In this document: positions 21,361 through 38,988 of the stretch, piece after piece | Numbering within the stretch: the first letter of the stretch is position 1 | Layout: each line of letters starts with the position of its first letter | Assembly: GCA_907163375.1 (NCBI GenBank) | Contig: CAJQUW010008929.1 | Coordinates: 1 to 64,000 of the forward strand | Length of the DNA stretch: 64,000 bases | From: Prostheceraeus crozeri | Lineage: Eukaryota > Platyhelminthes > Polycladida > Euryleptidae | Reading direction: 5' to 3' | Made by a program: the position numbers and the translations under genes | The notes under the pieces: model-generated | The model's input: the letters and a program-made list of their open reading frames with translations, nothing else | Told to the model about the DNA's origin: nothing | Database searches by the model: none

Positions 21361-21382
21361 GAACGTTGCAAATGAAGTTCGG

Positions 21383-21593: not shown

Positions 21594-21615
21594 TACGTTA
21601 TGAGAACCATGAGTT

Positions 21616-22416: not shown

Positions 22417-22550
22417 GCTGACTGTGAATAATAACTTTGAAATGTTTTCTAATTCTTAAGTATCAACAAGCAACCAATCAGAATGAACAGCCAATGAATG
22501 ATGAATATGAAAGTATATATGCAAAGTGACATTCGTGTCATTTCACTCTG
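22417..22550. promoter_or_regulatory. Bidirectional promoter between the 151-aa gene and PolB
   Basis: GTATATATGC (22,513-22,522) reads as a TATA-like box on both strands. Two CCAAT boxes (ACCAATCAG, GCCAATGA) lie at about 22,475-22,497. On the plus strand TCATTTC at 22,538 could be the PolB initiator. Confidence 0.55.
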
Positions 22551-22694
22551 TCTTTGAGACGTATAAGTGAAGTGTTCTCTAGCGAATTCTGTTATTATTT
22601 GAGGTGTACAAGTGAACTGCTATCTCGTGAATTCCAAATTTGAGTGAAGTCTCTATCTTGTAGAAGTATCAACCTTAAACTTGATTTCATTGAA

Positions 22695-25600
22695 ATGGTA
22701 AGTTGAAAATTTCCTCTCTCATCTCCCTCAAACGTGTGGCTAATAGCATTTTCCTCAATTTCAGGCATCAACTTCATCACCAACGCCCTCCCTTCTCGAG
22801 GAAAGTTTAGAGTTGTTGAGTCAAGGTAGGTTGTAACAATACACTGAGACTTGAACAGAGATGATAGAATGATTTCTCTTTCAGGTGATGTGAGTTCCAT
22901 CTCAGAACTGTCGCGACATGGCAACGAGTGGGAATGTGCTGACTGTGGGCACATCTTCACGAGGAAATGGGATCTCACCCGACACATCAAGCGAGGTGTT
23001 TGTCGACCTAAGCCGGCATCAATCTCCGAAGGTGGGGATGATTCTGTTAACGTCGTCTCCTTTTCTTGCGACTTGTGCGCTCAGTCTTTCGAGACACGTT
23101 TTGAACTATCTTCGCACAGACTTCAACATACACACACGAACGATACCTACACCAACGGTACCTCCTCTATCCGACTCACTGAAGTGTCCATAAATAATTT
23201 AGTGAGGAACTACCAGATGGACTCCTCAGAAACCATTGCTAACTTTGAGGAATGGTTTCATCAAAATTCATCATTGATAGAAGCGCTCTTCAACAATTTA
23301 GACAATTTTAGGATGAAGGCGCTCATCTATCTTAAAATAAAATATGTAAAAATCGACCACCATACTGGACAAATAATAGAGAGGTTGGAGTTTCACATAC
23401 CCTCCTCTCCTGCAACCGAGGTTGTAGACTATGAGTCTTGGATAAATTTTCACATCCAAGGATTAAAATTAAATATTGATAAATTTAACGAGCGCGATAG
23501 CGGTCTCATTTTTGACGGCATTGAGTCCGCCTTATTTAAAATCAGTTTATTAGGAAATCATAGTGGTCGAGGCTCCTTTAAACTTCCAAAAAATTTAAAA
23601 AACAAAACAGCAGTCATCAATGTCGATTGCGAATCGCAATGTTTTAAATATGCTGTCCTCTCCATTCTCCACTATAATGACATCAATGCGAATCGAAATC
23701 GCACATATAGCTATAGGCAGTGGGAGAATGAATTAAACTTCGATGACTGTAATAGTGACGATATGAAAATTAAAGATATAGAAAAATTTGAAAAATTGAA
23801 CAACATTAAAATAGTTCTCCATGTTTGGGAAAAAGGATTGAAGGGTGTGCGCTACAACTCGCGTTCGAGTTGTTATGAACGTACAGTAAACCTGTTATTA
23901 GTAAAACAGGATGATAGTGAGGAATGGCACTACTGCGGTATTCCCAAAATCTCTCGCTTATACCACCACTTAGAAAACTCTAGTAGAGAGTTATATTACT
24001 GCGACAGATGTATTCGCCACTTTAGGAGGAAAACTAAATTTGAAACTCATTATGAGTGGTGTAAGCGAGGTAAACTGCAAATGGAACGCATGCCCAAAGA
24101 TAAGGAGTTTTCATATAGAGAGAATGGCGATGAACTAAGTCCTCTTCGTGTCATCTATGCTGACATCGAATGCTATATCGATGATAACATCCATCGACCA
24201 GCAGCCATTTCCTGCTATGAAGTATGGCATGATCACTTTAGGAGTAGGCAAAATAAAATGCGCGTCTGGCAAGGTGAGGATTGTATTTACCAATTCCTAC
24301 AATTCCTCGAACAGGCTGTAAAATTTCAACAAAAGTATGATGGTGAACTCTATCGCAGATCATTGCATATGACAGCAGATGATCAAGCAAAATTTGATAG
24401 TTGCAACGTTTGCCCCAAATGTAGGAAAACATTTGACGATGATAAGATTAAGAAAGTGCGCGACCATGATCACATCACTGGTAAATTTAGAAACGCACTC
24501 TGTTCAAAATGTAATTTTTCGCTGAGGATGAAGCGGCGTACATTACCCGTCATTTTCCATAATTTCAAGGGCTACGACAGCCATATGATAATAAAAGGAG
24601 GTTTAGGTCAAATGAAAGAGTGGAAGCTTGATGTAATAGCACAAACGAGAGAGAAGTTTATGGCCATGACAGCAAAAGTGCCTGTCGATAAAACTAAAGA
24701 AAATAAGACGGTCTATTTTGATATAAAATTTTTAGATTCCTACCAATTTATGACTGCATCACTGGCCTCTCTCGTGCAAAATCTAAAGTCTCTTCCACTA
24801 ACACAAAATCTTAAGAAACAATATCCAAATCTAACCGATGAAGTCATCACACGGAAAGGAGTCTTTCCATATGCATATTTTGATGCAATTAGTAAACTCG
24901 GCGAGACTTCTCTTCCGCCCATAGATAAATTTAAAAATGATTTGACCGGCGCAGAATGTAAGACCGAAGATTATGATCATGCACAAGATGCATGGATAAA
25001 ATTTGACTGCCATACATTTGGTGAATATATGATTGCCTACCTTAAGTTAGATGTATTTTTGCTGGCTGATGTATTTCAGGAGTTTCGACGAGTGGCATTA
25101 GAAGAAGATAAGTTAGATCCCGTCCACTTTGTCAGTCTGCCAGCCATGTCATTTAAGTCTGCTTTTAAAATGACTGGTGAGACCATTCATCTCTTACAAG
25201 ATCCAGAGATGTATAATTTATTTGAGCGAGGAATTCGCGGTGGTCTCACATTTGTAAATAAACATAGGTTAAAATCTGAAACAGTAGGTAATGATCATAC
25301 CCATCTTAAGTATTATGATCAAAATAATTTGTATGGTAGTTCATTATCCAAACCGCTACCTCACTCTGAGTTTAGCTGGTTAGATGATAGTGAAATTCAA
25401 CATTTCTCCAACCCTTCTAACATACTAGCAATTCCAGATGAAGGTGATTGGGGATATTATTTTGAGATAGATCTAATCTATCCAAATAATATTAAACATA
25501 AAACCGTAGATTTTCCACTCGCACCCGAATCAGGTGAAGTGACCAAAGATATGTTTTCCGACTTTATGAAACAATTTCATAAAGATTTAGAATCATGCGG

Positions 25601-26666
25601 TCAACCCGACTATAAGCCTTGCCGCAAACTTTTACTCACCCAGTATGATAAGGAAAACTATCTAGTCCACTTTAGCATCTTAAAATTTTATTTAGAAATG
25701 GGTATGATTTTAAAAAGAGTTCACCGCATTATTAAATTTAGACAGAAAGCCTTCCTCAAACCATATATTGATAGCAACAGCCAGAAACGTGCACTAGCCC
25801 AAAATAATTTTGAAAAAGATTTTTATAAATATAAGAACAACAGTCTATTTGGTAAGACGATGGAGGATGTTAGAAAGCGCGTAAACTACAAACTAGTTAA
25901 TGATGATCAAAAGTATCACAAATTGGCCTCATCACCTCTATTCATCGATAGAGACATTATCGATGAGGACCTTATAGGTGTTAAAATGATAAAATCTGAA
26001 GTTGAGTTGTGCAAACCCATCTATATTGGTCAAGCTGTACTAGATTACTCTAAGCTTGAAATGTACCAACTCTTTTATAAAATACTAAAACCATGTCCTC
26101 TCGTAAAAGAGGTTCGTTTGTTGGGTGGTGATACAGATAGTTTCTTCTTAGGTATTACCACTCAAAAAGATTTAAATTTCAATGAAGTAGGAAAATCTTT
26201 AGAAAGATATTTTGATACATCAAATTATCCTACTGATCACCCACTCTACTCCATCAAAAATAAGGCAAAACTTGGCTGCTTTAAGGATGAGACAGCAGGG
26301 AAGGAAATAGATGAAATGATTCTCCTCCGTCCAAAAATGTACAGTATGAAATTAAAGGATAGCGACGATAGTATTAAGCGTGCTAAAGGCATATCAAGAT
26401 CATTGGTCTCTAACATGAAACATAAGAATTTCAGGAAAGCCTATAGAAATAAAAATATAACGTTTGTCAATATGACAATCTTAAAATCTAAGTCGCATGA
26501 GATCAAAACTCATACTTTTAGGAAACGGGCGCTTTCAGCATGGGAGGATAAGAGGTGCTGGCTAGAACACAACATATCTCTTCCACATGGACATCCTGAC
26601 ACAAACATACCACCACCCAAAAGAATTAAACTCACACTACCACATTCAGGAGACGTCTTAGCATAA
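22695..26666 (+). CDS. polB: Protein-primed family B DNA polymerase, spliced
   Basis: The start codon at 22,695-22,697 directly precedes intron 1 (22,698-22,764, 67 bp); exon 2 is 22,765-22,825; intron 2 is 22,826-22,884 (59 bp); exon 3 runs to the stop, for about 1281 aa. Both introns are GT-AG and join in frame. Domains: two C2H2/C2HC fingers (CADCGHIF...HIKRGVC; CDLCAQSF...H), an OTU-like Cys box (DCESQCFKYA), a third finger (CDRCIRHF...H..WC), exonuclease motifs (YADIECYI; HNFKGYDSH; YLKLDVFLLAD), an HNH-like insert (CPKC...RDHDHITGKFRNALCSKC), polymerase motifs A (DQNNLYG), B (NNSLFGKTME) and C (GGDTDSFF). Function: replication of the linear viral genome from a terminal protein primer. 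No breaks. Confidence 0.95.
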
Positions 26667-26971
26667 TCATCCTTAACTTAGTATTTTGATGTTGATTTCT
26701 GTAGATAAACATTGTTGTTTTATGTATCGCATGAGATTGTTTTTTCCTTGTGAATATGTGTCCACATCTGTACATTCCCCATGTGATGACTTTTCCACTG
26801 AAAGACATTTTTCCTATCCCTGTATATTTCCACCCTTCACGAAGTAAAAAGACTTTTTGTATATAGCAATGTTTATTGAAGTGCGCTCATGTATATATTT
26901 TCAGTGGATGTTGTATAAAGTCTATTGCTTCACATTCATGTACATATTTCAATAAATGTTGTATAAAGACT
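26667..26971. other. Convergent intergenic region with poly(A) signals
   Basis: PolB (plus) and the 516-aa structural gene (minus) converge here. AATAAA occurs on the plus strand at about 26,951 and on the minus strand at about 26,867, so the two transcripts may overlap. A GTATATA..TTCA motif recurs at 26,890-26,960. No gene seen. Confidence 0.5.
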
Positions 26972-28492
26972 TCACTTTGTTTTCCGAAACACTAACGTTA
27001 TGAGGGATTTAGTATCTTTCACGTGGATGCACTCTTGTAAACCATTGGTAATTTTGATAGCAATAGAGGGTATAGTTTGTTTGACGACGGGATGATAGAA
27101 AATAGATTCAAACATCTTCTCGACTATTCCATATGAAGCGTCTTTATCATGAATGAAATCACGTAAAATGTATTCTTTTTTCTCACCAACAGAAATAGGT
27201 AGAATCAAATCACTTTGAATGTAAAGGTGCTGTTCATGTTTATCAAGTGTCATTGGTGTTTCTATACCAATCGTATGCGCAGCAGCAAACACTGTTTGTA
27301 GCATTGAAAAACCAAAGAGTTTTTTCAAATTTTTACTCAATTGACATTGAATGTCATCACCCAGTCTCAGAACAACGCGTTGATTTTCAATTGAAAACGA
27401 AATGTGGTGTGTCTTTACATCATATTTACTTTTCATCACATGCTTCAACTTCTGTTGTATATAAGGATTTACTACATGAATGAAGCTTTCAACTGTATGA
27501 TATAGACGCGGCATTATATTGATAGCAACTTTAGATTCTTCATAAGACTGGTAAATTTTCTTGATGCGATCGCCATAGATGTCCACCCACCATTCATCAT
27601 TAACTGAATCAGCTTTAGTGTGATATTCATGAGAAGCATACACCACACCGCTTCCAATAATAGGTGTATAATGTCTTACAAAATGACGCAAGGTTGGAGA
27701 GAAATAAACTGTAAGTTTGTCATTATATTTCTGAATAACCAACTTATTTTTGTTCGCCATAATTTTCTCTCCATACTTCTTACCCACAGTCTCATTCCAT
27801 CGTTTTACTAACTCAATAAGTGATAAAGGTTGAACACCACGCTTTTTCAAAATGATGCGTTCTTCACATTCTACAACATCTTCATCAAATATTTTAAATC
27901 TATAATGAAATTTGTTGATTCGATTTGAATAAACTTTTTTAACATTTGCAGTAGCAATTGATGTTAGATGTAGTCCATGACCAAAACCAAGATGTGGATA
28001 GAATTCATTATCCAACCTCAGCGTAAGACCTTTAGTAAAAGAATGAAAGCGGAGGAACTGTCTCCCACTCCAATGATAGATAGTAAACTCATAAGCTTTC
28101 TGATTTTTATTCTTCATGATGGAAGTATTACCACTGTTGAATGCCTTAATAATTTTCTCATTCCCAAATGGTTCATAAGAATCTGATTTTATCTGAATCC
28201 ATTCATAGTTCCACTTTCCATCTGATGTTAAATTGTATGGGAACTGAAATGCATTATTCATCGTTATTCCATCATGGGTGCGAGGAGTCAATATCATTTC
28301 TTCCAAATCATTCACATTCTGAATATTGCTATCATAGCAAATACTAGAAACGCCAACCTCCCATTCACCTTCTAAATGCAGTGGCCGATTTAATTCTACT
28401 CGATAGTCTGATGGTTTATTTTTGGGAAATTTATTCATAGAAGCATTACTGGGCAAGTAGATTAGAAACGAGTCCTTATTTTCACTTTCCAT
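26972..28492 (-). CDS. Vertex-type or minor virion structural protein 1, element B
   Basis: About 506 aa from Met 28,492 (MESENKDS); the frame is open to 28,522. It starts with the YLPSNAS motif and then the strand GEWEVGVSSICY, the signature shared with the genes at 28,532 and 8,237. The middle shows jelly-roll-like alternating strands, but I could not delimit domains. Known for the family: these proteins recur in metazoan Polintons/adintoviruses as capsid-associated proteins. Penton or spike function is inferred. It is read toward PolB and ends 305 bp from it. Confidence 0.65.
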   Translation of the reverse strand: MESENKDSFLIYLPSNASMNKFPKNKPSDYRVELNRPLHLEGEWEVGVSSICYDSNIQNVNDLEEMILTPRTHDGITMNNAFQFPYNLTSDGKWNYEWIQIKSDSYEPFGNEKIIKAFNSGNTSIMKNKNQKAYEFTIYHWSGRQFLRFHSFTKGLTLRLDNEFYPHLGFGHGLHLTSIATANVKKVYSNRINKFHYRFKIFDEDVVECEERIILKKRGVQPLSLIELVKRWNETVGKKYGEKIMANKNKLVIQKYNDKLTVYFSPTLRHFVRHYTPIIGSGVVYASHEYHTKADSVNDEWWVDIYGDRIKKIYQSYEESKVAINIMPRLYHTVESFIHVVNPYIQQKLKHVMKSKYDVKTHHISFSIENQRVVLRLGDDIQCQLSKNLKKLFGFSMLQTVFAAAHTIGIETPMTLDKHEQHLYIQSDLILPISVGEKKEYILRDFIHDKDASYGIVEKMFESIFYHPVVKQTIPSIAIKITNGLQECIHVKDTKSLITLVFRKTK

Positions 28493-28531
28493 ATTATTCA
28501 CATTGGAAAAATATATTAGCATACGTTTGCA

Positions 28532-29929
28532 TTAACTCTTCATTCGGAAATGGAGTGTGATACTTGTCACAGCATCTTTATGAAAAGGAATCAACGCACC
28601 AGCATCGTCATAAATGGCAATATCAATTTGTGGGATGTAGTTTGATTTCAGCTTTGTATAATGCACTTTCTTGAAAGTATGCTCAGATAAAATACTGCAG
28701 CTTTTTGGCTGGTATGGTATCATTGCTAGCAATGGAGCTTCAACATCTCCCACACGTACATCTTCACCAATATTGGAATATATCTGAAAATAGTTAATAC
28801 GACGCGATAGCGACATGTCTGCGCTAGCTTTGGTTACAGTACCACTTTTAAAGATATTTTGATCAAAACCCAAAATGTCCATTAGAGTTTTATCCATAAT
28901 TAGTTCAATACCTTTTCCACTTATAGTGAGAGACAAAGTACCTTCTTTTTCAGAAAATGAAATATGTTGGTCATTAATCACTTCATTTAAATAATCTACA
29001 ACCAATTTAACCGAAGTAATAATGCGAGGCATCAACACTCTTGTTTCATGTAAGATACCACCTAAAGGCTCTACACACTTTCTGTATAAAGATACGGTCC
29101 ATTCTGTATCAAATTGATTTGACCTTTCACATGGTAAATGTTGCATATCAGATTTTCCATGAACAGCTGCAGAACGATGTCGTAAGAACTGATGAAAATC
29201 TTTTGAACAAACTAATACTAGATCATCATCATTTAATTTGCTTATTGCAATATGATTAGATGATTTAATATAAGTCAATGTTGCCACTTGTTTGCCATCA
29301 ACTCGAAGGAGATAATTAAATTTCTTCAACAATGTTTCAGGAGTCATGTTTGTCTTTCTTGGCTTAATCACAATCTTCTTCACCAACGTCTTCTCATTTC
29401 TTGGAATAAGATCTACATAATAAGCTTCCTCTCGATATATTAACTGTTTATGACCACTTATGTGGTAATTAACGTTAAAATTATCATAGCTTGTTAAGGC
29501 GCTAGCGAGGTAACCTAAATCATTTCTTAAACTTGGACTTAAACCAACAATCCAATCTTTCTCAACTACATGATGTACATAATTATAATCATCATTGTGC
29601 GGAGTAAATTGGACAATATGTTTACTCGCTTTATTCAAGAAATCATATATAAACTTTTTACATGATAAGAGATCTTTCTTTGGCCACTGTGGAATGTATA
29701 CTCGGCACCCCTTTTCACATTGATAAGCAGCTGTACGCCTCATATTAATAGTCATCACCTCATGATCAAAAGTATAGACACAGTTGCTATAAACAAGTTG
29801 AGTGACACCCACTTCCCAATTTCCATTTAGCTGTTGTGCATGATCAATGGGAGTAGAAAAGAGTGCGGCTCGATTACTAGTAAATCTCTTTGTAGCCGCA
29901 TTGCTAAGCAAAATATGATAAAACGACAT
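28532..29929 (-). CDS. Vertex-type or minor virion structural protein 2, element B
   Basis: About 465 aa from Met 29,929 (MSFYHILLSNAATKRF); the N-terminal strand is GNWEVGVTQLVYS. The C-terminus (DIAIYDDAGALIPF...ITLHFRMK) matches that of the element A gene at 8,237, so these two are the closest relatives. Nine bases separate it from the frame of structural protein 1, which suggests a shared mRNA. Its start faces that of the PC4-like gene with only about 35 bp between, leaving a very compact divergent promoter. Confidence 0.65.
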   Translation of the reverse strand: MSFYHILLSNAATKRFTSNRAALFSTPIDHAQQLNGNWEVGVTQLVYSNCVYTFDHEVMTINMRRTAAYQCEKGCRVYIPQWPKKDLLSCKKFIYDFLNKASKHIVQFTPHNDDYNYVHHVVEKDWIVGLSPSLRNDLGYLASALTSYDNFNVNYHISGHKQLIYREEAYYVDLIPRNEKTLVKKIVIKPRKTNMTPETLLKKFNYLLRVDGKQVATLTYIKSSNHIAISKLNDDDLVLVCSKDFHQFLRHRSAAVHGKSDMQHLPCERSNQFDTEWTVSLYRKCVEPLGGILHETRVLMPRIITSVKLVVDYLNEVINDQHISFSEKEGTLSLTISGKGIELIMDKTLMDILGFDQNIFKSGTVTKASADMSLSRRINYFQIYSNIGEDVRVGDVEAPLLAMIPYQPKSCSILSEHTFKKVHYTKLKSNYIPQIDIAIYDDAGALIPFHKDAVTSITLHFRMKS

Positions 29930-29952
29930 TTTTATATTGCTAATCTGCAACT

Positions 29953-30321
29953 TTGCATAACATCATGAAGACTTGGATTTTGGACTCTCTACAATATATC
30001 AGAGTTGATCGTGATGGAAACGTACATTTCAAAAATTCTCATGGTCATACATCAAGAGGAATTACATTAACATGGCGACAATTTGTCAACCTCAATGATA
30101 TCATGAGGGATTTGGAATATTTTGAAACATTAAGATTCATCTCCTTGGGTGATCAAGTTTGGCTTCAACATTACAGAAATGAAATTCAAATCTACCATTC
30201 TCATTCCGCAAACTGTTTCTCATTTCGCAAATACAATTGGGAGAAGTATAGAAGATATATACATCGCTCCATCATGACATTTATTCGTCGTGAGTTCATC
30301 GCCCTACTATGCAAATCTTAA
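29953..30321 (+). CDS. PC4-like protein 1, element B
   Basis: A 122-aa protein (perhaps starting at Met 29,965) with two related halves: strand, turn and helix VHFKNSHGHTSRGITLTWRQF then VWLQ...IQIYHS...NWEKYRRYI. The order 'strand - positively charged loop - strand - LTxxQWxxLxxI helix' is that of the ssDNA-binding transcription cofactor PC4/Sub1. The similarity is weak and the assignment is inferred. It is paralogous to the next gene. Expected role: ssDNA or promoter binding during viral transcription or replication. Confidence 0.6.
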   Translation: MHNIMKTWILDSLQYIRVDRDGNVHFKNSHGHTSRGITLTWRQFVNLNDIMRDLEYFETLRFISLGDQVWLQHYRNEIQIYHSHSANCFSFRKYNWEKYRRYIHRSIMTFIRREFIALLCKS

Positions 30322-30343
30322 TCAGACATGACTACCACACATC

Positions 30344-30994
30344 ATGAGTTGGAAATTAGATTCCCTACAACGTATTGAAACGGATCATGATCGAAACGTC
30401 TATTTCAAAGATTCAACTGGAAATGTGAGAAGAGAGTTTGCTTTATCTTATCGTCATTTTCAATCTCTACATCATATCATGAAGGACTTGAAATACTTCT
30501 ATATGAAAAGACATTCACGTATTGGAAATCGCATCTGGCTGCGCGTCAACAATCGGCGAATTCAACTCTATCATTCCCAACTTCATACTAACTTCACATT
30601 TCATCAAGGTAGTTGGGAAAAGTATAAAAGGAAGGTACATCGCTCAATTTACTCATTCTTTCATCATGAAGCGCCATCGCTACACCATCGTCAACATTCT
30701 CCGTCGCTTCAGACTCTACACCAAAATCGATCTCACAACATTACACCAACAGCTTCCAAACAGCAAGTATTACCCGGGCCGTCCTCAAATGTTAGTGGTG
30801 AAGATGAACAATTCACGGAATCTTCAACTCTTCCCAAATGGGACTGTACAGATTCTCGGCGCCCTTTCTCATTCATCGGCGCAGTCAATGCGCTTAGAGC
30901 TACAAAGACTACTACGTCGGATATGGAAGAGGGAGAGGTGTGTGATGTCGAATCTGACTGTGGACAATATGGTGATCTCTACTCAATTGAGTGA
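30344..30994 (+). CDS. PC4-like protein 2 with low-complexity tail, element B
   Basis: Its first 110 residues are paralogous to the preceding protein (VYFKDS...REFALSYRHF, then IWLRV...IQLYHS...SWEKYKRKV). The last 105 residues are Ser/Thr/Gln/Glu-rich and overlap the TBP-like gene by 329 nt in another frame; the same arrangement occurs in element A, where the overlap is 200 nt. The tail may therefore be real, but selection on two frames cannot be judged here. Confidence 0.6.
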   Translation: MSWKLDSLQRIETDHDRNVYFKDSTGNVRREFALSYRHFQSLHHIMKDLKYFYMKRHSRIGNRIWLRVNNRRIQLYHSQLHTNFTFHQGSWEKYKRKVHRSIYSFFHHEAPSLHHRQHSPSLQTLHQNRSHNITPTASKQQVLPGPSSNVSGEDEQFTESSTLPKWDCTDSRRPFSFIGAVNALRATKTTTSDMEEGEVCDVESDCGQYGDLYSIE

Positions 30995-31211
30995 CAGTCT
31001 ATCATTTTTGAAGATTCGTACCAGCAGTTACAGTTTGTGTTATGAACCCGAACTTTTTCCTGCAGCTCTCATTAGTTGTTGGTTACCTGTGCATGTGGCA
31101 ATCTTTCATAATAGTAAAGTGATCATTACTGGACTAAAATCTCATGTACAAGCAAATATGATCCTAGACTATCTCATTGAGTATGTACGTACCCAGCGGA
31201 TTGTAAAATAA
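30666..31211 (+). CDS. TATA-binding-protein-like factor, element B
   Basis: A 181-aa protein from Met 30,666, the length of a TBP core domain. Two half-repeats are visible. Repeat 1 (residues about 5-75) has IVNILRRFRLYTKIDLTTL, YYPGRPQMLVVKM and LFPNGTVQILGA, matching TBP IVSTVNLGCKLDLKTI, YNPKRFAAVIMRI and IFSSGKMVCTGA. Repeat 2 has VDNMVIST, YEPELFPAALIS and IFHNSKVIITGL, matching IQNMVGSC, YEPELFPGLIYR and IFVSGKVVLTGA. The DNA-facing Phe residues are only partly conserved. The frame is open further upstream to 30,522 but the TBP match begins at 30,666. AATAAA at 31,207-31,213. Expected role: viral TATA promoter recognition. Confidence 0.82.
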   Translation: MKRHRYTIVNILRRFRLYTKIDLTTLHQQLPNSKYYPGRPQMLVVKMNNSRNLQLFPNGTVQILGALSHSSAQSMRLELQRLLRRIWKRERCVMSNLTVDNMVISTQLSDSLSFLKIRTSSYSLCYEPELFPAALISCWLPVHVAIFHNSKVIITGLKSHVQANMILDYLIEYVRTQRIVK

Positions 31212-31237
31212 AAAACAATTTTTCCAACATGATGTTT

Positions 31238-31699
31238 TTATTTCAAATCATGATAGAACTTACAAATCATTTTTTCATTAGAGGATGGATTACATGAAAA
31301 GTTTTGAATAACAGATGCAAATCGAGATACATGTAAACGTTTTAAGATGAAGTACAGTACAAAAGCACCACACGTTGATGAAAGTGGATGTTGTAGTATG
31401 CGTTCATTTCGCTGATATTGACGCGTATGTTTTCTCAACCACTGCTGTGTTGGTATATTTGGAGGTTGAGCAAGAGAGTCAAATAGTTCACCACGTCGGT
31501 CTTCTCCAATAAAGATCGCTTTCCAATGCTCACCGCCTAAATTCTGTGAATGAGTGTTTAGCACAATAAAGATGGGATAGTGATTTACTGCAGGTGGTAA
31601 GGTATCGAGTGAATAGACATTATCGAAAGCTTTCAACGTCGCTTCGTCTGCATTACGCTGCACTTTAGTCTTAATATCGTCAGCAGTCAACCAACTCAT
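31238..31699 (-). CDS. Adenain-like cysteine protease
   Basis: A 153-aa protein with a catalytic His in GGEHWKAIFI, an Asp in ELFDSLAQ, a Gln-containing helix, and the nucleophile Cys in LSSTCGAFVLYF. The order His-Asp-Cys and the length fit the adenovirus maturation protease/Ulp1 fold used by Polintons for capsid precursor cleavage. Its ATG overlaps the capsid gene stop by one base, so both are probably on one transcript. Likely substrates are the GG-containing core and basic proteins at 32,979 and 36,082. Confidence 0.9.
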   Translation of the reverse strand: MSWLTADDIKTKVQRNADEATLKAFDNVYSLDTLPPAVNHYPIFIVLNTHSQNLGGEHWKAIFIGEDRRGELFDSLAQPPNIPTQQWLRKHTRQYQRNERILQHPLSSTCGAFVLYFILKRLHVSRFASVIQNFSCNPSSNEKMICKFYHDLK

Positions 31700-32976
31700 T
31701 AACGATTATACTGAAGAATCACGTCACGATACTTTGTAATTTCAATATTTGAATCGAAGACTGCATAAATTAATACATTGATCGTCTCAGGTAGTGTTCT
31801 TTTGAACGTCAAATCCAAACGAATATTATGAGGCACGTTCGCTTGACGATAGGGTGCACTAATATCGCTGTCAGCAGTCAAATCAAATGCATAAATAGTA
31901 TATCCACTCTTAAACTCTTTCATAGTAAGTCCGTTGGTGTCATCCGTATTGTAAAAGCCAAAGACATCCATAAAATCAACATAACTGCGCATAAATTGAT
32001 CCGAAGCAAAATCTGGTTTGTAGGGTGGACCAGGATGACTCACACCATTTACACGTAAAGCAATTTCACTTAACTGATTGTGTTTAAAATTGAAAGGATT
32101 CTTCTTTATATTACCATTAAATGCATCATTTTCAACCATTGCCACCATGAGGAGCTTCGGTGCTTCCGATGGAAAGAGGCCATCTTTCATGAAACTCTTT
32201 TGATCTTTCGGAATTGTAAAGGTGAGAAGCTTTGTATGCTGAACGGGGTAAATGGCATTTTGGCGGTTAAGGCCTTCAGCATGCCCTCTAATGACACTTG
32301 GATTCGGTACTACTCGACGAATGTAAAGTGCAATATCTTCCACATGAATTCTAAAATTGTCAACTTTAGCAAATGCATTCAGCGCAAATTCAGGCTTATT
32401 CAATGTCAGCTTGAGTCGCATGCTGGTATTACACAGTAAAAACTTTGACTGTCTAAAGAAGTCTAAATTCAGCGGACCATATAGCTGACATACTTTACTA
32501 TCTTTAATCATAGCAGATCGCTTTACAAAGCCACTGTTTGTTTCAACATCAAATTTTCCTGCTTCATCTCTATACCATCCCATGGCTTCCATATGACTTT
32601 TTTGTGCTGCTGGATGAAACTGTGATACATGATTGAAATATGATTTATAGGGATAATCGCTTTGACCACCTTCCACCTGCTGCTCTCCAATCGTTAGAGA
32701 AACATCGCGAAGTAATGTAGTCAATGGTAAATTGTTCAGTCCAACTTTATGTGCATCGTCAATAGCAGTTCCATCTGCTTGCTGAATTCTAAACCTCAAA
32801 TCAAGCATCGCATAACTCAAATCTATGTAGTCATCACTACCACCAGGAATAACAAATTCAATGGGGCCAGCATTCTCAGCTGTTCGAGGATGATAATCTA
32901 CAATACTTGAACTAAGAATATCTGTCTGTATGGCTTGTTGATCAAACAAACAAAAACCGGAAGTTTTACACTCCAT
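31699..32976 (-). CDS. Major capsid protein, double jelly-roll type
   Basis: A 425-aa protein with the N-terminal site GPIEFVIPGGSDDYIDLSYA, then LRDVSLTIGEQQVEGG and SDYPYKSYF, then a second barrel (LDFFRQSKFLLCNTSMRLKL) and a C-terminal ISAPYRQANVPHNIRLDLTF. This is the family labelled F54H12.2-like in animal genomes, the Polinton/adintovirus hexon-type capsid protein. It lies between core protein and protease, as expected for a virion gene cluster. Complete and unbroken. Confidence 0.88.
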   Translation of the reverse strand: MECKTSGFCLFDQQAIQTDILSSSIVDYHPRTAENAGPIEFVIPGGSDDYIDLSYAMLDLRFRIQQADGTAIDDAHKVGLNNLPLTTLLRDVSLTIGEQQVEGGQSDYPYKSYFNHVSQFHPAAQKSHMEAMGWYRDEAGKFDVETNSGFVKRSAMIKDSKVCQLYGPLNLDFFRQSKFLLCNTSMRLKLTLNKPEFALNAFAKVDNFRIHVEDIALYIRRVVPNPSVIRGHAEGLNRQNAIYPVQHTKLLTFTIPKDQKSFMKDGLFPSEAPKLLMVAMVENDAFNGNIKKNPFNFKHNQLSEIALRVNGVSHPGPPYKPDFASDQFMRSYVDFMDVFGFYNTDDTNGLTMKEFKSGYTIYAFDLTADSDISAPYRQANVPHNIRLDLTFKRTLPETINVLIYAVFDSNIEITKYRDVILQYNR

Positions 32977-32978
32977 GA

Positions 32979-33434
32979 TTAGAAGTTATAGCAGCGTCGT
33001 CGTTTAGCGCCTGATGAATGATTAGAGCCTCTACGACGTTTGCGTGAATGCCTTTTGACTGAAGATCGCACCTTACCAGCTCCGCGATGTTTCCTCCTTC
33101 CTTTATTCATTCGTTTAGGTGATTTCTTTCCTTGAGTAACACCAGCAAAGGTCTGCTTCAATGTTTTTAAACCGCGTTCCTTCCCACGATTCAACAAACT
33201 GCTCTTAAAACTTCTACCTCTGGAAAGATCACTAGCAACATCACCAGCAAAGCCAACGGCATTACTTAAAACATTTCGTTTTAAAGATCTACCGACATTG
33301 GATATGAGAGGTGCTACAACAGATTTCAGTGCACCAAGTATGCTACCTCCACGTTGGCGGCGAGCACCGATGTAAATTTGTCCTCCACCACTTACATAGG
33401 AGGGTCGTGAATAAAATGAGGCAGTTGGATTCAT
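32979..33434 (-). CDS. Basic core protein with amphipathic GG segment
   Basis: A 151-aa protein. The N-terminal third has VSGGGQIYIGARRQRGGSI followed by a hydrophobic amphipathic stretch (LGALKSVVAPLI), and the C-terminal half is almost all Lys/Arg/Ser/Gly. Known: adenovirus pX/pVII and pVI combine GG protease sites, basic DNA-binding tails and a membrane-active helix. I infer a DNA-condensing and possibly membrane-lytic virion protein processed by the protease. Two bases separate it from the capsid gene. Confidence 0.7.
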   Translation of the reverse strand: MNPTASFYSRPSYVSGGGQIYIGARRQRGGSILGALKSVVAPLISNVGRSLKRNVLSNAVGFAGDVASDLSRGRSFKSSLLNRGKERGLKTLKQTFAGVTQGKKSPKRMNKGRRKHRGAGKVRSSVKRHSRKRRRGSNHSSGAKRRRCYNF

Positions 33435-33475
33435 AGCTCAAACCCTAAACATTGTTAGTTACAACTTTGCATGAA

Positions 33476-34564
33476 TCACTGTCGATCACTTAGATGAAAG
33501 ATGTCGGCACGACGCATCCAAGAGTTCATACTTGAAGGATAACCAGTCCATTTAACAAGACACCATTCTTCACCTTGCCGTTTTTTACATCGAATGATTT
33601 TCTCTACCAAATATGTTTCACTTTCAGTGACTACCTCAATCTCATCGCGGTAAAAGCTACCCTCAATTTCTTCATTATCGTAATCTTTCAACTTGTAGGT
33701 GGTCGGAGAGTCTTTTTGATTAATCCTTGATACTGTAAATACCTCCTCTGTCCAATTCGGAAGGTACCCTTTAGCAAAAACACTTTTCACTTTTGAGATA
33801 CGAACTTTATCGCCAATTTTCACATCACTTTTCACATGAGTGCGTTTACGTTGGAATGATTCGCGCACTTTATCTACATTGTCAGCATTTACATCTACTG
33901 GTCTGAGTCCAATAGAACGATGGATAGAGTGATTGTAGGCATGGAGTGTATCTTGTAGAACCTTTGTCCAATTTTGTGTCAAGTTGGCAGTAAAATGTCG
34001 CCACAAGCGATTTTTTAATGTGCGATTAAAACGTTCAACGAGTGCAGCTTTATAAGCACTCTTTACACTAAACAACTCAATGTCATGCCTCTCAAATAAT
34101 CTTCTCACATGCTGATTTTCAAACTCTTTTCCTTGATCACTCTGAATTCTTTTTGGAATCCGACCTTCTCGAAAAATTGTTTGGAATGCTTTTGCTACTC
34201 CTTTCCCTTCTTTAGTTTTTAAAGGTTGAGCCCACGCATAACGCGAGAAAATATCAATGACGGTTAAAATAAAATTATTACCCGAGTTATGTTTTGAAAT
34301 GGAGGCGACATCGCACAAATCTGCTTGCCACTGTTCATCGATGTCATGAACAATATAATGGCGGGTGCGGTACTTCTTTTTCGCTTGTTTGTGGAGTGTA
34401 TAGGTAGCCTGACCCTTTAACCATCGTTTCACTTGTGATTGTGGAAGACCACTCGCTTTTGATAATTTCTTGATAGATGCAAATCCTGCCGGATGTTTTA
34501 CATCATAATAGATTGACTTCAAACGCTCAGTCGATGACGACTGACTCTTTTTCCTCCTTCTCAT
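33476..34564 (-). CDS. Retroviral-type integrase with chromodomain, intact
   Basis: About 362 aa from Met 34,564 (MRRRKKS); the frame is open to 34,696, but element A and the overlapping Cys-rich frame support the later start. Domains: N-terminal helical region (LKSIYYDVKHP...VKRWLKGQATYTLH), DDE core with Asp in QWQADLCD, Asp in QSDQGKEFEN and Glu in LVERFNRTLK, a basic strand region (VRISKVKSVFAKGYLPNWTEE), and a C-terminal chromodomain (CLVKWTGYPSSMNSW). It inserts viral DNA ends into the host genome; the chromodomain may guide it to marked chromatin. No breaks, unlike the element A copy. Confidence 0.92.
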   Translation of the reverse strand: MRRRKKSQSSSTERLKSIYYDVKHPAGFASIKKLSKASGLPQSQVKRWLKGQATYTLHKQAKKKYRTRHYIVHDIDEQWQADLCDVASISKHNSGNNFILTVIDIFSRYAWAQPLKTKEGKGVAKAFQTIFREGRIPKRIQSDQGKEFENQHVRRLFERHDIELFSVKSAYKAALVERFNRTLKNRLWRHFTANLTQNWTKVLQDTLHAYNHSIHRSIGLRPVDVNADNVDKVRESFQRKRTHVKSDVKIGDKVRISKVKSVFAKGYLPNWTEEVFTVSRINQKDSPTTYKLKDYDNEEIEGSFYRDEIEVVTESETYLVEKIIRCKKRQGEEWCLVKWTGYPSSMNSWMRRADIFHLSDRQ

Positions 34565-34742
34565 CTTTTTGTTTTCTTGCCTTTCTACATTTACAACAAC
34601 TACAGCATTTAGCTTTAGCGGTTTTGCGATCGTGTTCACATTGCTTAGGGGTTTCATTATGAGAGCTGGCGCAGCAAGTGCAAGTGACAACGACATTCAC
34701 CTCTGGCGGCTCATTACATGGCAAGCAACACATCTGCTTCAT
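34527..34742 (-). CDS. Small Cys-rich frame overlapping the integrase start, element B
   Basis: A 71-aa frame starting MKQMCCLPCNEPP, with TCTCC and CCSCCKCRKARKQK, so 13 Cys, followed by a Lys/Glu-rich tail. It starts just after the 230-aa gene stop and overlaps the integrase start by about 40 bases in another frame. Element A has a Cys-rich frame in the same place. It may be a small metal-binding or membrane-associated viral protein. Function unknown. Confidence 0.5.
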   Translation of the reverse strand: MKQMCCLPCNEPPEVNVVVTCTCCASSHNETPKQCEHDRKTAKAKCCSCCKCRKARKQKDEKEEKESVVID

Positions 34743-34743
34743 A

Positions 34744-35436
34744 TTAATAGTCTGAGAACATGTATTTCCTGGGAGGAGCTGTTTTACGTTTTCCTTTTAC
34801 CAGTTTTAGTGACGATGTAGATCTACGTCGAGTTCTTCCTCTTGTTTGCTTAGTGAGTGTGGGAGGGGATGTAGCAGGTGACGACTTAAACCAATTTGTT
34901 GGCATTTTCATCGTCTGAAGCATTGGAGCAGTAGCCACTGTTGAATCAAGTTCTTTCAATGTCTCATTATTCAAAGCAAATTTTGGCACATTATGCTTTT
35001 TCAATAGTTTAAGAAAGTATGACCAACCAGGTGGAACATAGCCCTGACGGCGCTTTCTACGTGTCGCATACTGAATCAAGTCTTCATAACGTGAAGCATC
35101 AATCACTTTATTTTCATCTGTAATGATTTCTCCTCTATCATTTACATTGAGATGGGGCTCAATACTATTGAAAAGAGATATGGCATGTGCGCGAGATGCT
35201 AAAGGTGTAGCAGTCGATACAGAGTCACGCATCTTATTCTTCAAGTTTTTCAATTGCTCAACAGTTTCCGATTGTAATAATACAGCACGATGTGGATCTT
35301 TGATGTGAACATTTTGCTGATAATCTATTTCTTTCCTATACATTTGATTTGCAAGAGGTTGCTTTACTTGCTGCATGGCAGTCAATTGTACATATTCATC
35401 CTGAGGAATAACAATCATGCGAGAATAAGAACTCAT
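34744..35436 (-). CDS. Conserved 230-aa protein between ATPase and integrase
   Basis: N-terminus MIVIPQDEYVQLT, a charged helical middle, a conserved RGEIITDENK and GWSYFLKLLKKH site, then a basic Arg/Lys/Ser-rich region and the ending KYMFSDY. The element A homologue at 11,117-11,763 keeps all these sites. The start overlaps the ATPase stop by 4 bases (ATGA). Not recognised; position suggests a capsid or packaging role. Confidence 0.75.
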   Translation of the reverse strand: MSSYSRMIVIPQDEYVQLTAMQQVKQPLANQMYRKEIDYQQNVHIKDPHRAVLLQSETVEQLKNLKNKMRDSVSTATPLASRAHAISLFNSIEPHLNVNDRGEIITDENKVIDASRYEDLIQYATRRKRRQGYVPPGWSYFLKLLKKHNVPKFALNNETLKELDSTVATAPMLQTMKMPTNWFKSSPATSPPTLTKQTRGRTRRRSTSSLKLVKGKRKTAPPRKYMFSDY

Positions 35437-36050
35437 AGTTTGTAGATAATCATGGGAGTTTTCAAAATATCACTTCGAAATCTAAATTCTTCCGGACACT
35501 CTTGCGTAAAGTCAATGAATAAGTAACCGTATGGTTTTTCAGTAGCTGCTTGAAAAATTTCAATTAAGGCTTTTGATCCTCTGGGTGCAACTTGTCGCGC
35601 TAAAATTTCAAATTGACTTTTATCTCGCGGATTCTTGAAAATAGCATAATAGTGTGTATTCAGGTTTCGTGTACGAGCTTCTTTTCCATCAGGAAACAAA
35701 TTTTGTGTAATATAGATGATAAAACACCTTTTATGGTGTGCTGCGCGAGTGAACATATCTGTAACATCTTTTGAATTCTTACTTTCTTTTAATAAATCAT
35801 CCAATACAACAACATCATTAGACTGAAGTTTATCCACTGGAATAATTCCTTCATGTCGAATAAAGTTGCGACTTTGCAATTCCTGAAACAGCGACGGTTG
35901 ATAAATACCATAACACCAAATCACTCGATTGATAGGTTCCTTAAACAACTCCCTTCTTTTATCCAATAAATTCAGCGTGAAAACAGTTTTACCTGCATGA
36001 GATGGACCTGATACAGTCAGAACTTTATCACATTGAAGTCTGAAATCCAT
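35433..36050 (-). CDS. FtsK/HerA-type DNA packaging ATPase, element B
   Basis: About 205 aa from Met 36,050 (MDFRLQCD); the frame is open to 36,098, which would overlap the upstream gene. Walker A is GPSHAGKTV (His in place of the Gln of copy A), Walker B is VVVLDDLL, and the downstream site is YITQN. It is the genome packaging ATPase of Polinton-like viruses. Ends in an ATGA overlap with the 230-aa gene. Confidence 0.93.
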   Translation of the reverse strand: MDFRLQCDKVLTVSGPSHAGKTVFTLNLLDKRRELFKEPINRVIWCYGIYQPSLFQELQSRNFIRHEGIIPVDKLQSNDVVVLDDLLKESKNSKDVTDMFTRAAHHKRCFIIYITQNLFPDGKEARTRNLNTHYYAIFKNPRDKSQFEILARQVAPRGSKALIEIFQAATEKPYGYLFIDFTQECPEEFRFRSDILKTPMIIYKL

Positions 36051-36081
36051 TTTATTACTTTGAGACTCAACATTTGCATAA

Positions 36082-36438
36082 TTAACGCTTAGAGCCAAAG
36101 ATATTTCCCAATAGGTTGCCCACGGCAGGAGCTATCATTGGAAGTATTGCTGAAAGGAAACCGCCCTTTTGTGTTAGAGTTTTCCTCTTTCTTTGAAGGG
36201 CGACTTTAGGATTGGAGATGAAACGCAATTTCGTAGCATATCGCTTAAGTAACTTTCGTTGTTTTGGCGCTAATTTCTTCGTCCTCAACTTCCTGACATG
36301 AGAAATAATTTCACAAATGAATTTATCGTTAGCATGTCGTATAGCATTGTATCGCTGATTTGCTTTCATTCGTCGGAGAGCTTGAATGGCTGAAGAAAAC
36401 TTTTGACTTTTACGTTTCGTCATTTTACGTTTCGCCAT
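36082..36438 (-). CDS. Basic protein with hydrophobic GG tail, element B
   Basis: A 118-aa protein that begins MAKRKMTKRKSQK, is strongly basic for 90 residues, then has QKGGFLSAILPMIAPAVG and a hydrophobic end. It has the same plan as the 13,442-13,834 gene of element A. The QKGG site could be a protease cleavage site that frees an amphipathic peptide, as in adenovirus pVI (inference). Confidence 0.65.
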   Translation of the reverse strand: MAKRKMTKRKSQKFSSAIQALRRMKANQRYNAIRHANDKFICEIISHVRKLRTKKLAPKQRKLLKRYATKLRFISNPKVALQRKRKTLTQKGGFLSAILPMIAPAVGNLLGNIFGSKR

Positions 36439-36489
36439 TTTCCGTGTTAGTCTTTGCTAAAACCTATCTTTACCACATTTGCATAGGTA

Positions 36490-36819
36490 CTAACTATTGC
36501 GACATAAGTGACACTCGAAATGAGCAATATCACAGTGGTTACATTGGCAAAGTTGAATGCAATTACGTATGAAACAGCGTTGACAAAAAGCATGCTTACA
36601 TCTCTTGAAGATGCGCTTTTCATTTCCATCCTTTCGCTTACATACATCGCAACACATAGTTTCACCGTTACTGATGTCTATAGCAAGTCTTTTTGAAGAT
36701 ATGAATTTGCTAGCCTTTTCTAAATAATAGACGCATGTACAGAAGGAATATACTTCGAGAGTGAGCAGACATAGCTCGAAAACCAGTTGTGCTACAATCA
36801 AGTACCACTGCATTTTCAA
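36490..36819 (-). CDS. Membrane-anchored RING-like protein
   Basis: A 109-aa protein. Residues about 5-33 form one hydrophobic segment (YLIVAQLVFELCLLTLEVYSF), probably a signal anchor. The C-terminal half is Cys/His-rich (CCDVC, RCKHAFCQRC, CQCNHC, CHLC) with RING-like spacing. It ends in TAG, and eleven further codons with two Cys follow before the next TAG. Start overlaps the upstream gene by 4 bases. A membrane E3 ligase acting on host surface proteins is a reasonable guess. Confidence 0.6.
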   Translation of the reverse strand: MKMQWYLIVAQLVFELCLLTLEVYSFCTCVYYLEKASKFISSKRLAIDISNGETMCCDVCKRKDGNEKRIFKRCKHAFCQRCFIRNCIQLCQCNHCDIAHFECHLCRNS

Positions 36820-37226
36820 TTTTTCTTTATGGAAAGTTGAATGTGAATATCTGAAATCGCTTCAATCACTAGACTGCTACCATGATGGTTAAATGCGTTA
36901 AGACGTTCAGCAATTTTTATCATATGTCTTTTAAAAAATTCTTCGGGGTGATCTACCACTTCCATTGAATAAGAAGCAAAATGGAAAGAGCGACTTTCCA
37001 CCTCTTCCTTTCCAAAATGACTAAACTTAATTTTCGCAACTAATCGCGCCATGATAATGCTATCAGAGAATGTATTCATTAACTCTAGAAATAGAGTGCT
37101 AGCATCATCAACCACTGCTTCGATGTCGGTCTCATCTTTATGAAATTTTATCACATAATCTTGAACAGCTCCTTTTAAACTTTGCCTATGAAAACGTAAT
37201 GTTCCGCAGTCGTTTGAGAAAGACAT
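36816..37226 (-). CDS. Stand-alone copy of the PolB N-terminal module
   Basis: A 136-aa protein. Its last 90 residues align with the region of PolB that precedes the OTU-like box: KIKFSHFG...EVESRSFHF...VVDHPEEFF then ERLNAFNHHGSSLVIEAISDI here, KIKYVKID...IIERLEFHI...VVDYESWI then DKFNERDSGLIFDGIESA there. Known: this module, with an FxxxGSG-like site and IxxIxIxL strand, recurs in proteins of animal Polintons. Function unknown; it may bind the same partner as PolB. Confidence 0.65.
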   Translation of the reverse strand: MSFSNDCGTLRFHRQSLKGAVQDYVIKFHKDETDIEAVVDDASTLFLELMNTFSDSIIMARLVAKIKFSHFGKEEVESRSFHFASYSMEVVDHPEEFFKRHMIKIAERLNAFNHHGSSLVIEAISDIHIQLSIKKN

Positions 37227-37313
37227 GATCGCCCTTTATCTAACCCATCCATTGCATGAAAACAACAACTCTTCTCATAGTAACATTTATTGAATAACGG
37301 TAACAAGCATGCA

Positions 37314-37844
37314 TTATAAATCAATGGTTTGAAAGAGATAAAATAGATACAGCTGGTAACTATCATACAGCGAGCAATGATAACCATACAGGACTTTGGC
37401 AGTGTTGAGGTAAGGAGGAAAGAAGCATTGGTTATGAACGTAGCTACTACAACGAACAGACAAAATAGGAACACACAAATCCTTAAAACGTTTCGTGACT
37501 TCATGATAATGTTGATTCACTCTACTATCCCAAGGCGGGAGCAAAATATCATCAATGATTAGATTGGGAAATACTTTCCTCTCCTTACCAGGATTATTAC
37601 AAAAGATGCGTATAACATTGAAAGCAGCTAACCATCGTTTAAAGTCAATAAGAAGAGCACTCTCACAAGAAAAGCCATAGTCTTGCAAATATTTCAGATT
37701 AAGTCCATGAATGTGTTTTCTCGCCCATTGATCAACATTGGGATCGCAGTTGGCATGTTGATGATAGACACTAACAATCTGATATGTCCAATTGTTCATA
37801 GCAATAGCACTGAGCTCCTGTACAGGTTCACCCTCACAATCCAT
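37314..37844 (-). CDS. Exonuclease-like protein (DnaQ/DEDD type)
   Basis: A 176-aa protein starting MDCEGEPVQEL, a DxE motif at the very start, then ARKHIHGLNLKYLQDYG, an Asp in LLIDFKRWL, IFCNNPGKE, and YHEVTKRFKDLCVPIL near the end, which could supply the third acidic site and the His. Similar proteins occur as stand-alone genes in animal Polintons. The assignment is inferred from motif order. A role in DNA repair or replication proofreading is possible. Confidence 0.5.
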   Translation of the reverse strand: MDCEGEPVQELSAIAMNNWTYQIVSVYHQHANCDPNVDQWARKHIHGLNLKYLQDYGFSCESALLIDFKRWLAAFNVIRIFCNNPGKERKVFPNLIIDDILLPPWDSRVNQHYHEVTKRFKDLCVPILSVRCSSYVHNQCFFPPYLNTAKVLYGYHCSLYDSYQLYLFYLFQTIDL

Positions 37845-37895
37845 AAAAATGATGATAGAAGCCTAAAACGGAAATTACACATCTAAGGAAGCGTT

Positions 37896-38144
37896 CTATA
37901 ACATATTACAAAATGAAGAATTACATCGATGCTTTTCACGACAAAATACACAAATGATATGATGGCAACGAAGAAGTAAAATGTATCTAATAAGACCACG
38001 TCTACGACACTCAAAGCACATAAGCGAATTGTCATAGGGTAGAGTTAGGAAAGGGCTAGTAATTCTCCTTCTTTGATTTGCGTTTTGATGTAGCATTCTT
38101 CTCCGACTTGCGCTTCGTACCACTGCTGTTAAGGATTTGATCAA
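37896..38144 (-). CDS. Short RING-finger protein
   Basis: An 82-aa frame with a C-terminal RING-like motif (CFECRRRG, LRCHHIICVFC, CNSSFC). The frame overlaps the upstream gene by 89 bases; later Met codons (38,093 or 38,021) would reduce or remove the overlap. Ends in TAG. Likely an E3 ligase fragment or regulator. Confidence 0.5.
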   Translation of the reverse strand: MIKSLTAVVRSASRRRMLHQNANQRRRITSPFLTLPYDNSLMCFECRRRGLIRYILLLRCHHIICVFCREKHRCNSSFCNML

Positions 38145-38831
38145 TTATGTCGTCCACGTTGGGTGGTTTTGGAATATATAGGATGGATTCCATATGCATG
38201 GAGAGAGAGGCTATTTTATTATCCTTGTGTCGACCATAATATAGCCCATTCACTTTGAAAAGGATATCCCAAGTACCTTCTCCGAGCTCATCACATCTGA
38301 TGGCTATTGATTGATCTCCCTCCTTCTTATAGTAAGTACACCAATGTGATACCGGTAGGCAAATGTGATTACCATCCCAAATCTTTCTATAGGGAGTATC
38401 CTTGTCATCTCTAGCCTTCCACTCTTGAGCAAGAGGAGTAGGAATGTCCATATTTAATGTCACATACTCCTCAATAATATCAAGTTGGTGGCGAATGTAC
38501 GGACTCACGGGGATCAGTATGTAGTCCCCATACTGATTGCGCATTATCTTGACATCCGTGGAAGGGAGCATTCCCGTTTGGAGTACTACGCTATGATCGT
38601 CATAACGCAAGACTTGTTTAAATTTACGCTGTAGCGGTGTAGGATTATGTACCTTGGTTGTTTCTTCCACTGGCCTCAGTTGTAGATGATCTGACCGTAG
38701 CGAACCTTGTAACGTTTGACCGCCATTTTGTCCTACTAGTGCAGCAGATGGAGTAGATGCCTGAAAATGAAAAAAGATTGTATTAAGTTTACGTTCAAGG
38801 GAGGAGAGGGAGGAAAGTAGCGACTTACCAT
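38056..38831 (-). CDS. Conserved NGLYYG protein, spliced
   Basis: The ATG is at 38,829-38,831 and is followed at once by a 68-bp intron (38,761-38,828, GTAAGTCG...CATTTTCAG). Exon 2 runs from 38,760 to the stop at 38,056, for about 236 aa. An unspliced inner Met at 38,670 would give 204 aa. Motifs: LIPVSPYIRHQL, RCDELGEGTW, NGLYYGRHKDNKIASL and a Lys-rich tail. It is homologous to the broken element A gene at 12,547-13,292. It is the first gene after the 38.9-kb promoter. Function unknown. Confidence 0.75.
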
Positions 38832-38902
38832 TTTAGTTGGATAATAGAACAGGGAACTAGAGAGAGAAAATGTGCGTCCGTCACTCGTATGATTCAACGA
38901 TG

Positions 38903-38937
38903 GAATGATTCTCACTGTGGAAGGCTCGCTATTTATA
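38903..38937 (-). promoter_or_regulatory. Promoter of the long minus-strand series, element B
   Basis: On the minus strand TATAAATAG starts at 38,937 and TCATTC covers 38,908-38,903, with 31 nt from TATA to the initiator A, the same spacing and initiator as at 18,943-18,977. CCAAT-like sites (CCAATGAG, CCAATGAGA) lie upstream at 38,955-38,980. Confidence 0.75.
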
Positions 38938-38988
38938 CAGAAATGCTTGATTCTCATTGGATGATGATCCTCATTGGACAATAACATC

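Follow-up and report, generated by a model that had tools for sequence, protein, structure and literature searches.

Element B and its gene content

The window, meaning the whole 64-kb stretch of Prostheceraeus crozeri DNA that was analysed (64,000 nucleotides), contains a 22,448-bp insertion, element B (17482..39929). The terminal inverted repeats of element B stop at 17482 and 39929 and the terminal 20 bases are identical at both ends. The termini read 5'-AG...CT-3' and the outer flanks are both ATCCGA, a 6-bp target duplication. From these ends, the duplication and an integrase with a chromodomain, the element hosting the TATA-binding protein (TBP) gene is an integrated Polinton/Maverick (adintovirus-like) element. 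Its integrase and its protease-like, ATPase-like and polymerase-like ORFs make up, taken together, the kind of gene set that marks Polintons/Mavericks. The main features of element B are:

17482..18687, + strand, left terminal inverted repeat, including tandem repeats of ~326 nt
22851..26666, + strand, 1271-aa ORF containing an Endonuclease VII domain and C2H2-like fingers and, by eye, a GDTDSF motif
26972..28522, - strand, ORF S516, paralogue of S472, presumed structural
28532..29950, - strand, ORF S472, paralogue of S516, presumed structural
29953..30321, + strand, 122-aa tandem paralogue of the 216-aa ORF that follows
30344..30994, + strand, 216-aa ORF upstream of TBP, residues 1-106 with a predicted Pur-alpha/Whirly/PC4-like fold
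30666..31211, + strand, TBP gene, 181 aa (P0001), from translation, PF00352, PDB profile search and predicted fold
31238..31699, - strand, cysteine-protease-like ORF (Peptidase_C48 E 0.0012 and C5 adenain E 0.043, neither reaching the curated cut-off)
31699..32976, - strand, capsid-like ORF, 425 aa, by position and resemblance
32979..33434, - strand, PX-like basic ORF, 151 aa, by composition only
33476..34696, - strand, rve integrase with chromodomain (rve E 5.3e-11, Chromo E 6.2e-7, both over cut-off)
35433..36098, - strand, packaging-ATPase-like ORF (Pox_A32 E 0.022, under cut-off)
38987..39929, - strand, right terminal inverted repeat

The preliminary description had placed the TBP gene within a capsid and polymerase gene cluster. 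The protease-like and capsid-like ORFs do adjoin TBP. The protease-like match was weak (C48 19.2 bits against a cut-off of 20.7). ORF 31699-32976 is a putative major capsid protein by its position and resemblance; profile searches of it gave no match. The 1271-aa ORF is presumably PolB, by its GDTDSF motif; Pfam and PDB searches returned no polymerase match for it. The tandem paralogues S516 and S472 (26972-29950) have an N-terminal motif of the FPxNKP...WEVG type and a relative in element A. The ATPase-like ORF has a relative in element A at 53% identity.

Element A (window 1-15128) is part of a second, decayed Polinton with another TBP lineage. Its relatives of the integrase and of a 230-aa ORF are spread over more than one frame and its TBP frame ends early. 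Cys/His-rich ORFs, RING-like by eye, are present in both elements, at 36490-36819 in B and 14622-15128 in A. Outside the duplication-defined ends of element B there is a further inverted pair (16402-16839 and 40022-40457, 79% identical). Endonuclease and reverse transcriptase ORFs of a non-LTR retrotransposon, broken over two frames, lie at 51137-53389. An Rfam scan of the 64-kb window gave nothing at the gathering threshold.

The TBP family and its copies in the host genome

The + strand ORF at 30666-31211 encodes 181 aa. Both TBP half-repeats had been read in this product beforehand. The strings quoted for them are present in the translation, and Pfam PF00352 (TBP) matched over two stretches with 71.6 bits (cut-off 22.9) and E 4.9e-20. 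A 32-row family profile searched against the PDB found 35 sequences at E <= 10, all of them TBP chains or TBP fusions, with a best E of 1.4e-24. The predicted structure has the two-repeat saddle. Profile and fold thus both upheld the TBP identity. As modelled, the 181-aa product is a minimal two-repeat TATA-binding protein of a virus lineage, consisting of the saddle only.

In the protein database 61 proteins matched the 181-aa TBP and 339 matched the family profile at E <= 10. The 61 sequence matches were combined with the 120 listed of the 339 profile matches to give a family set of 129 different proteins. No match to the 181-aa TBP was found in PHROGs or in phage records. IMG/VR viral contigs gave no result for the 181-aa TBP, the family alignment A1, the capsid-like and polymerase-like ORFs or the ATPase alignment, and prokaryote genome contigs gave none for A1. 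From the IMG/VR, phage and prokaryote searches, therefore, the TBP family was not seen beside other virus genes outside the host genome. IMG/VR contigs L001-L015 encode TBPs, three of them 51-54% identical to yeast TBP and others nearer the archaeal type by eye.

A tree was built from 55 rows, comprising 38 of the 129 family proteins, the two window copies, 4 cellular TBPs and 11 IMG/VR TBPs. Four of the 15 IMG/VR loci were left out: L007 and L008 (12 residues), L012 (incomplete) and L009 (a near-copy of L005). The 40 rows of the TBP family formed one side of a branch with support of 100/100. The window's two TBPs sat in separate deep parts of this clade, and the 11 IMG/VR and 4 cellular TBPs fell outside it. 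The attachment point of the clade is not fixed because long branches (1.16 and 1.54) flank the midpoint root.

The host genome comprises 2.05 Gb in 14,165 contigs. All 150 scored matches to the 181-aa TBP, the best 150 of 11,899 first-look candidates, were identical in protein across all 181 residues, which gives a copy count of at least 150. Compared as DNA across 3.1-3.5 kb, eight copies matched the window at 98.9-99.7% identity. A JGI contig of 10,296 bases encodes a protein (P0132) 99% identical to the 216-aa ORF, so near-identical element DNA is present in another data set. With the distant family member P0060 as query, the best 150 of 10,403 candidates showed 29-38% identity, with an internal stop in 4/150. 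At 30 loci from this search the upstream 216-aa ORF was matched in 30/30 (in lineage D in part through the tail of that ORF which overlaps TBP), and protease-like and capsid-like matches lay beside TBP in 27/30. The other three loci (L036, L042 and L052) contain a relative of a 204-aa ORF, and L036 additionally a polymerase-like ORF.

Five of the 30 loci (L024, L025, L031, L039 and L050) form lineage B', with TBPs 82-89% identical to that of element B. Lineage C (L054) has the gene order of element B across the 9.9 kb compared, with identities of 42% for TBP, 42% for the protease, 54% for the capsid-like protein and 63% for the integrase. In lineage D (L055, L057 and L061) TBP is near a polymerase-like ORF, and protease or capsid-like matches were absent within the stretch compared. 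L059 is of the A lineage and has an intact 187-aa TBP between a polymerase-like ORF and a protease, 75% identical to the element-A TBP. TBP identities among B, C, D and A/L059 ranged from 29 to 55%. TBP is carried by Polinton/Maverick elements across four deep lineages in this one genome. The window copy of the A lineage is:

161..664, + strand, element-A TBP, 34% identical to the element-B TBP (PF00352 E 1.9e-12)

A diverged TBP had been claimed at this position, and its PF00352 match agrees, but the window copy is shortened by an in-frame stop. Its frame has 172 codons, compared to 194 in most of 150 scored rows. All 150 rows scored with this query (window copy included) were 99-100% identical, and one had an internal stop. 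A-lineage TBP copies are very numerous in the host genome and intact copies exist.

Whole-gene dN/dS between the element-B TBP and five B' copies was 0.19-0.27, and 5/5 copies had no stop. Codons 111-181, which are free of the upstream-ORF overlap, gave 0.26-0.35 for B against B'. Among the five B' copies dN/dS was 0.16-0.41. All of these copies were picked by TBP similarity, which favours intact ones. The TBP gene is under purifying selection.

DNA-facing residues, promoter motifs and proposed role

The 181-aa TBP and 129 database proteins, 130 family members in all, were aligned to yeast TBP for residue counts, and yeast numbering is used. The roles of these positions (intercalating phenylalanines, TFIIB stirrup) follow TBP-DNA structures. 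F116 and F207 were kept in 130/130 proteins and F190 in 129/130. N159 and V161 were kept in 130/130, T215 in 129/130, and N69 in all 110 proteins having a residue there. The stirrup glutamates were also kept (E188 in 130/130, E186 in 128/130). Three of the four phenylalanines of a canonical TATA reader are thus present, and the fourth, F99, is fixed as Pro in 124/127. Further fixed changes were V122 to Gln (130/130) and L114 to Gln (125/130), and T124 was changed to Leu in 117/130 and L205 to Ala in 106/130. Because it retains only three of the four phenylalanines that intercalate, the 181-aa product, judged on its residues, belongs to the TBP family and not to the canonical TATA-box readers.

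Placed on TBP-DNA structures, most of the changed positions fall in repeat 1, with L205 of repeat 2 as an exception, and most of the kept ones belong to repeat 2 and the TFIIB stirrup. TBP repeat 1 grips the 3' half of the TATA box. Read against yeast TBP, the DNA-kinking phenylalanines of repeat 2 and the TFIIB-facing EPELF stirrup are retained and the repeat-1 DNA face is changed and fixed, a residue pattern which suggests that the protein binds DNA with a changed specificity and still contacts TFIIB. A DNA-gripping face half kept and half rebuilt suggests that the element steers the transcription of its own genes. A stirrup kept despite only 21-25% identity to yeast TBP would also fit a decoy or competitor, which would bind TFIIB or host promoters and shut down or reprogram host genes, and would not serve viral promoters. 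A pure TFIIB decoy would not need intercalating phenylalanines, of which 3/4 are kept, and a common motif stands before structural genes in two lineages (see below). Such a decoy is quite improbable.

The TBP gene is preceded by a TATA box.

30624..30631, + strand, TATA box TATAAAAG, starting 43 nt before the TBP ATG, within the upstream 216-aa ORF

For 21 element-B ORFs, the 120 nt that precede the start codon were scored for TATA boxes with an approximate weight matrix. The TBP gene scored 10.8 (TATAAAAG) and the next best ORF 6.9, and no strong TATA box was found before the other element-B genes among the 21 ORFs scored. Clear TATA promoters had been described in this element, which is true of the TBP gene but not of its other ORFs. 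TATAAA was present within 75 nt before TBP at 29/30 loci and in the window element-B copy; the exceptions were locus L046 (TGTAAAAG) and the window element-A copy (TACAAAAG). Four of five representatives (B, C, D and L059) have the TATA box and the window's element A does not. Its distance before TBP was 46-47 nt in C, 43 nt in D and 41 nt in L059. The chance of TATAAA in a random 31-nt stretch of the element-B + strand was 0.014.

The 216-aa ORF (30344-30994) overlaps TBP by 329 nt in a different frame. This overlap recurs in C, D and L059 and both frames remain open. From its model the overlapping upstream gene likely has a Pur-alpha-like fold. In B, C and D the TATA box within it falls on Tyr-Lys codons, and its conservation could therefore stem from coding constraint. 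In L059 the codons that spell the box are Phe-Ile-Lys, which means that the DNA word has been kept there despite a different protein sequence. A canonical TATA box at the TBP gene, together with the kept repeat 2 and both central asparagines, would be expected of a plain TBP copy working like the host's, which would raise TBP dosage at ordinary TATA boxes, alongside host TBP, with unchanged specificity. We consider this unlikely, as the repeat-1 face is changed and fixed (117 to 130 of 130 at V122, L114 and T124) and none of the other element-B ORFs (21 scored) approaches a TATA score.

A different motif, ATGCAAA, was found before other element-B genes.

28526..28532, - strand, ATGCAAA, 10 nt before the S516 ATG
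29952..29958, - strand, ATGCAAA, 29 nt before the S472 ATG
30309..30315, + strand, ATGCAAA, 35 nt before the 216-aa ORF
33466..33472, - strand, ATGCAAA, 38 nt before the PX-like ORF
36073..36079, - strand, ATGCAAA, 29 nt before the ATPase-like ORF
36478..36484, - strand, ATGCAAA, 46 nt before ORF 36082-36438

ATGCAAA lies at most 50 nt before the ATG in 6/21 element-B ORFs, a count that the best 7-mer reached in 0/500 shuffles. For upstream stretches of 50-80 nt, the counts of the best 6-mer and the best 8-mer were reached in 0 to 7 of 500. In lineage C the best 6-mer, AAGCAA, was present before 6/9 ORFs (reached in 1/500 shuffles) and 5-mers and 7-mers were weak (35/500 and 115/500). The motif was 29-46 nt before the ATG in 11/12 cases (ATGCAAA in B, AAGCAA in C). 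A comparison of B with B' shows the box retained upstream of S472 and of the PX-like ORF amid changes in the adjoining bases. Before the B' relative of the 216-aa ORF it reads ACGCAAAT, so the box is not strictly kept.

WGCAA, the pattern shared by the two motifs, was present about 15 to 52 nt upstream (-15 to -52) of 6/17 ORFs in B (reached in 5/1000 shuffles) and 6/9 in C (0/1000). This pattern was chosen from B and C, so only A, D and L059 test it, with one weak yes and two no. It was weakly enriched in element A (3/9 ORFs, 37/1000 shuffles), where no single upstream k-mer stands out. It was not enriched in lineage D (1/7 ORFs, reached in 435/1000 shuffles) and not seen in L059, though TBP is present in A, D and L059 alike. 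WGCAA might instead be read by a host POU/octamer factor, with the viral TBP serving another step such as origin recognition with its Pur-alpha-like neighbour. ATGCAAAT equals the host octamer (POU) site, the fold predicted for the upstream neighbour is of a type that binds single strands, and the results in lineage D and L059 fit. AAGCAA of lineage C is no octamer, yet it precedes a number of the genes that have ATGCAAA in B, with much the same spacing. A host factor in this role is doubtful. The WGCAA box as target of the viral TBP is a testable guess, and it would be a concrete predicted late promoter.

Probably the viral TBP is expressed from a canonical TATA box and goes on to act at further viral promoters, together with host TFIIB and polymerase II. 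Of the accounts that use the TATA, residue and motif facts together, this is the simplest. The upstream gene and TBP would form a module whose canonical TATA box is read first, by host TBP. The viral TBP would next bind another box, perhaps WGCAA (ATGCAAA in B, AAGCAA in C), and would bring in host TFIIB and RNA polymerase II to transcribe late genes of the capsid stage. A more specific form, offered tentatively as a possibility, is an old self-contained two-step switch in Polintons. The PUR-like/TBP pair would be expressed from a TATA box hidden in the first gene, and at capsid-stage genes the half-rebuilt TBP (with its repeat-1 glutamines), aided by host TFIIB and polymerase II, would read the G:C-containing TATGCAAA/AAGCAA. 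The preliminary description had suggested a self-contained promoter system. The TATA box at the TBP gene is in line with it, but in two lineages a different motif precedes structural genes. The two-step switch, if true, would give a roughly 22-kb virus-like element its own promoter-recognition code. Polintons are regarded as close to the origin of many DNA viruses of eukaryotes. Retention of a TBP across several of their deep lineages would mean that a ~22-kb integrating virus-like element governs its own promoter choice and is not wholly reliant on the host.

Comparison with known systems

Element B shares its terminal inverted repeats, 6-bp duplication and rve integrase with chromodomain with Polintons/Mavericks and adintoviruses. 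Its protease-like and ATPase-like ORFs (both matches under cut-off) would also fit these elements. It differs in having a TBP; none is mentioned for Polintons or adintoviruses in the open-access papers covered, some of them as excerpts. The preliminary description had likewise been aware of none in this class. No TBP was placed in a Polinton or adintovirus in that open-access set, excerpts included, with subscription papers and most preprints outside its scope, so priority is not proven. The main texts of PMC11071296, PMC11071308 and PMC10120064 do not contain TATA, TBP, transcription factor or TFIID. In the excerpt of PMC7786948 TATA-binding protein occurs only within a reference title.

Compared to cellular and archaeal TBPs (PF00352; M. 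jannaschii 2z8u, yeast 1ytb), the Polinton TBP is 21-25% identical to yeast TBP, has F99P, V122Q, L114Q, T124L and L205A, and is encoded by a mobile virus-like element. TBP-like genes in large DNA viruses, noted earlier as known, were recovered as BFVD fold matches named TBP/TFIID from Heterosigma akashiwo virus, mimivirids and marseillevirus- and pithovirus-like genomes. Structural matches without a TBP name came from iridoviruses, ascoviruses and an asfa-like virus. TBP is reported in giant and large algal viruses (excerpts of PMC11464507, PMC4602308 and PMC12085832), in 59% of mirusviruses (excerpt of PMC10132985) and in elements of putative mirusvirus origin (excerpt of PMC10675990). Large DNA viruses and mirusviruses share the viral TBP fold and differ by their large genomes, and most BFVD matches are longer proteins. 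The best BFVD match to the 181-aa TBP was A0A5P9U4S6 (189 aa, TM 0.72, 20% identity). The source virus of A0A5P9U4S6 could bear on the priority of the Polinton TBP.

The TBP mimics of beta- and gammaherpesviruses (KSHV ORF24, HCMV UL87) target TATT late promoters, according to excerpts of PMC13345323, PMC7162547 and PMC8360532. The first of these excerpts (PMC13345323) describes KSHV ORF24 as multidomain and at least 752 residues long, with five partner factors and a domain of its own that binds the polymerase. The same preprint excerpt argues that TFIIB may be displaced in herpesvirus late transcription (PMC13345323). Like the herpesvirus mimics the Polinton TBP has a virus-encoded TBP-like fold, and a non-canonical late box is proposed for it too. 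Unlike KSHV ORF24 it is a bare 181-aa saddle and not a herpesvirus-type multidomain protein, and its kept TFIIB stirrup would be a difference from the TFIIB displacement argued in that excerpt. By analogy, its proposed role on late promoters would resemble that of the herpesvirus mimics; it may work like them, and membership in that class is not claimed. The Polinton TBP offers a minimal single-domain viral TBP for studying DNA-specificity change without extra domains. The two-step switch, if true, would be an independent parallel to herpesvirus late transcription.
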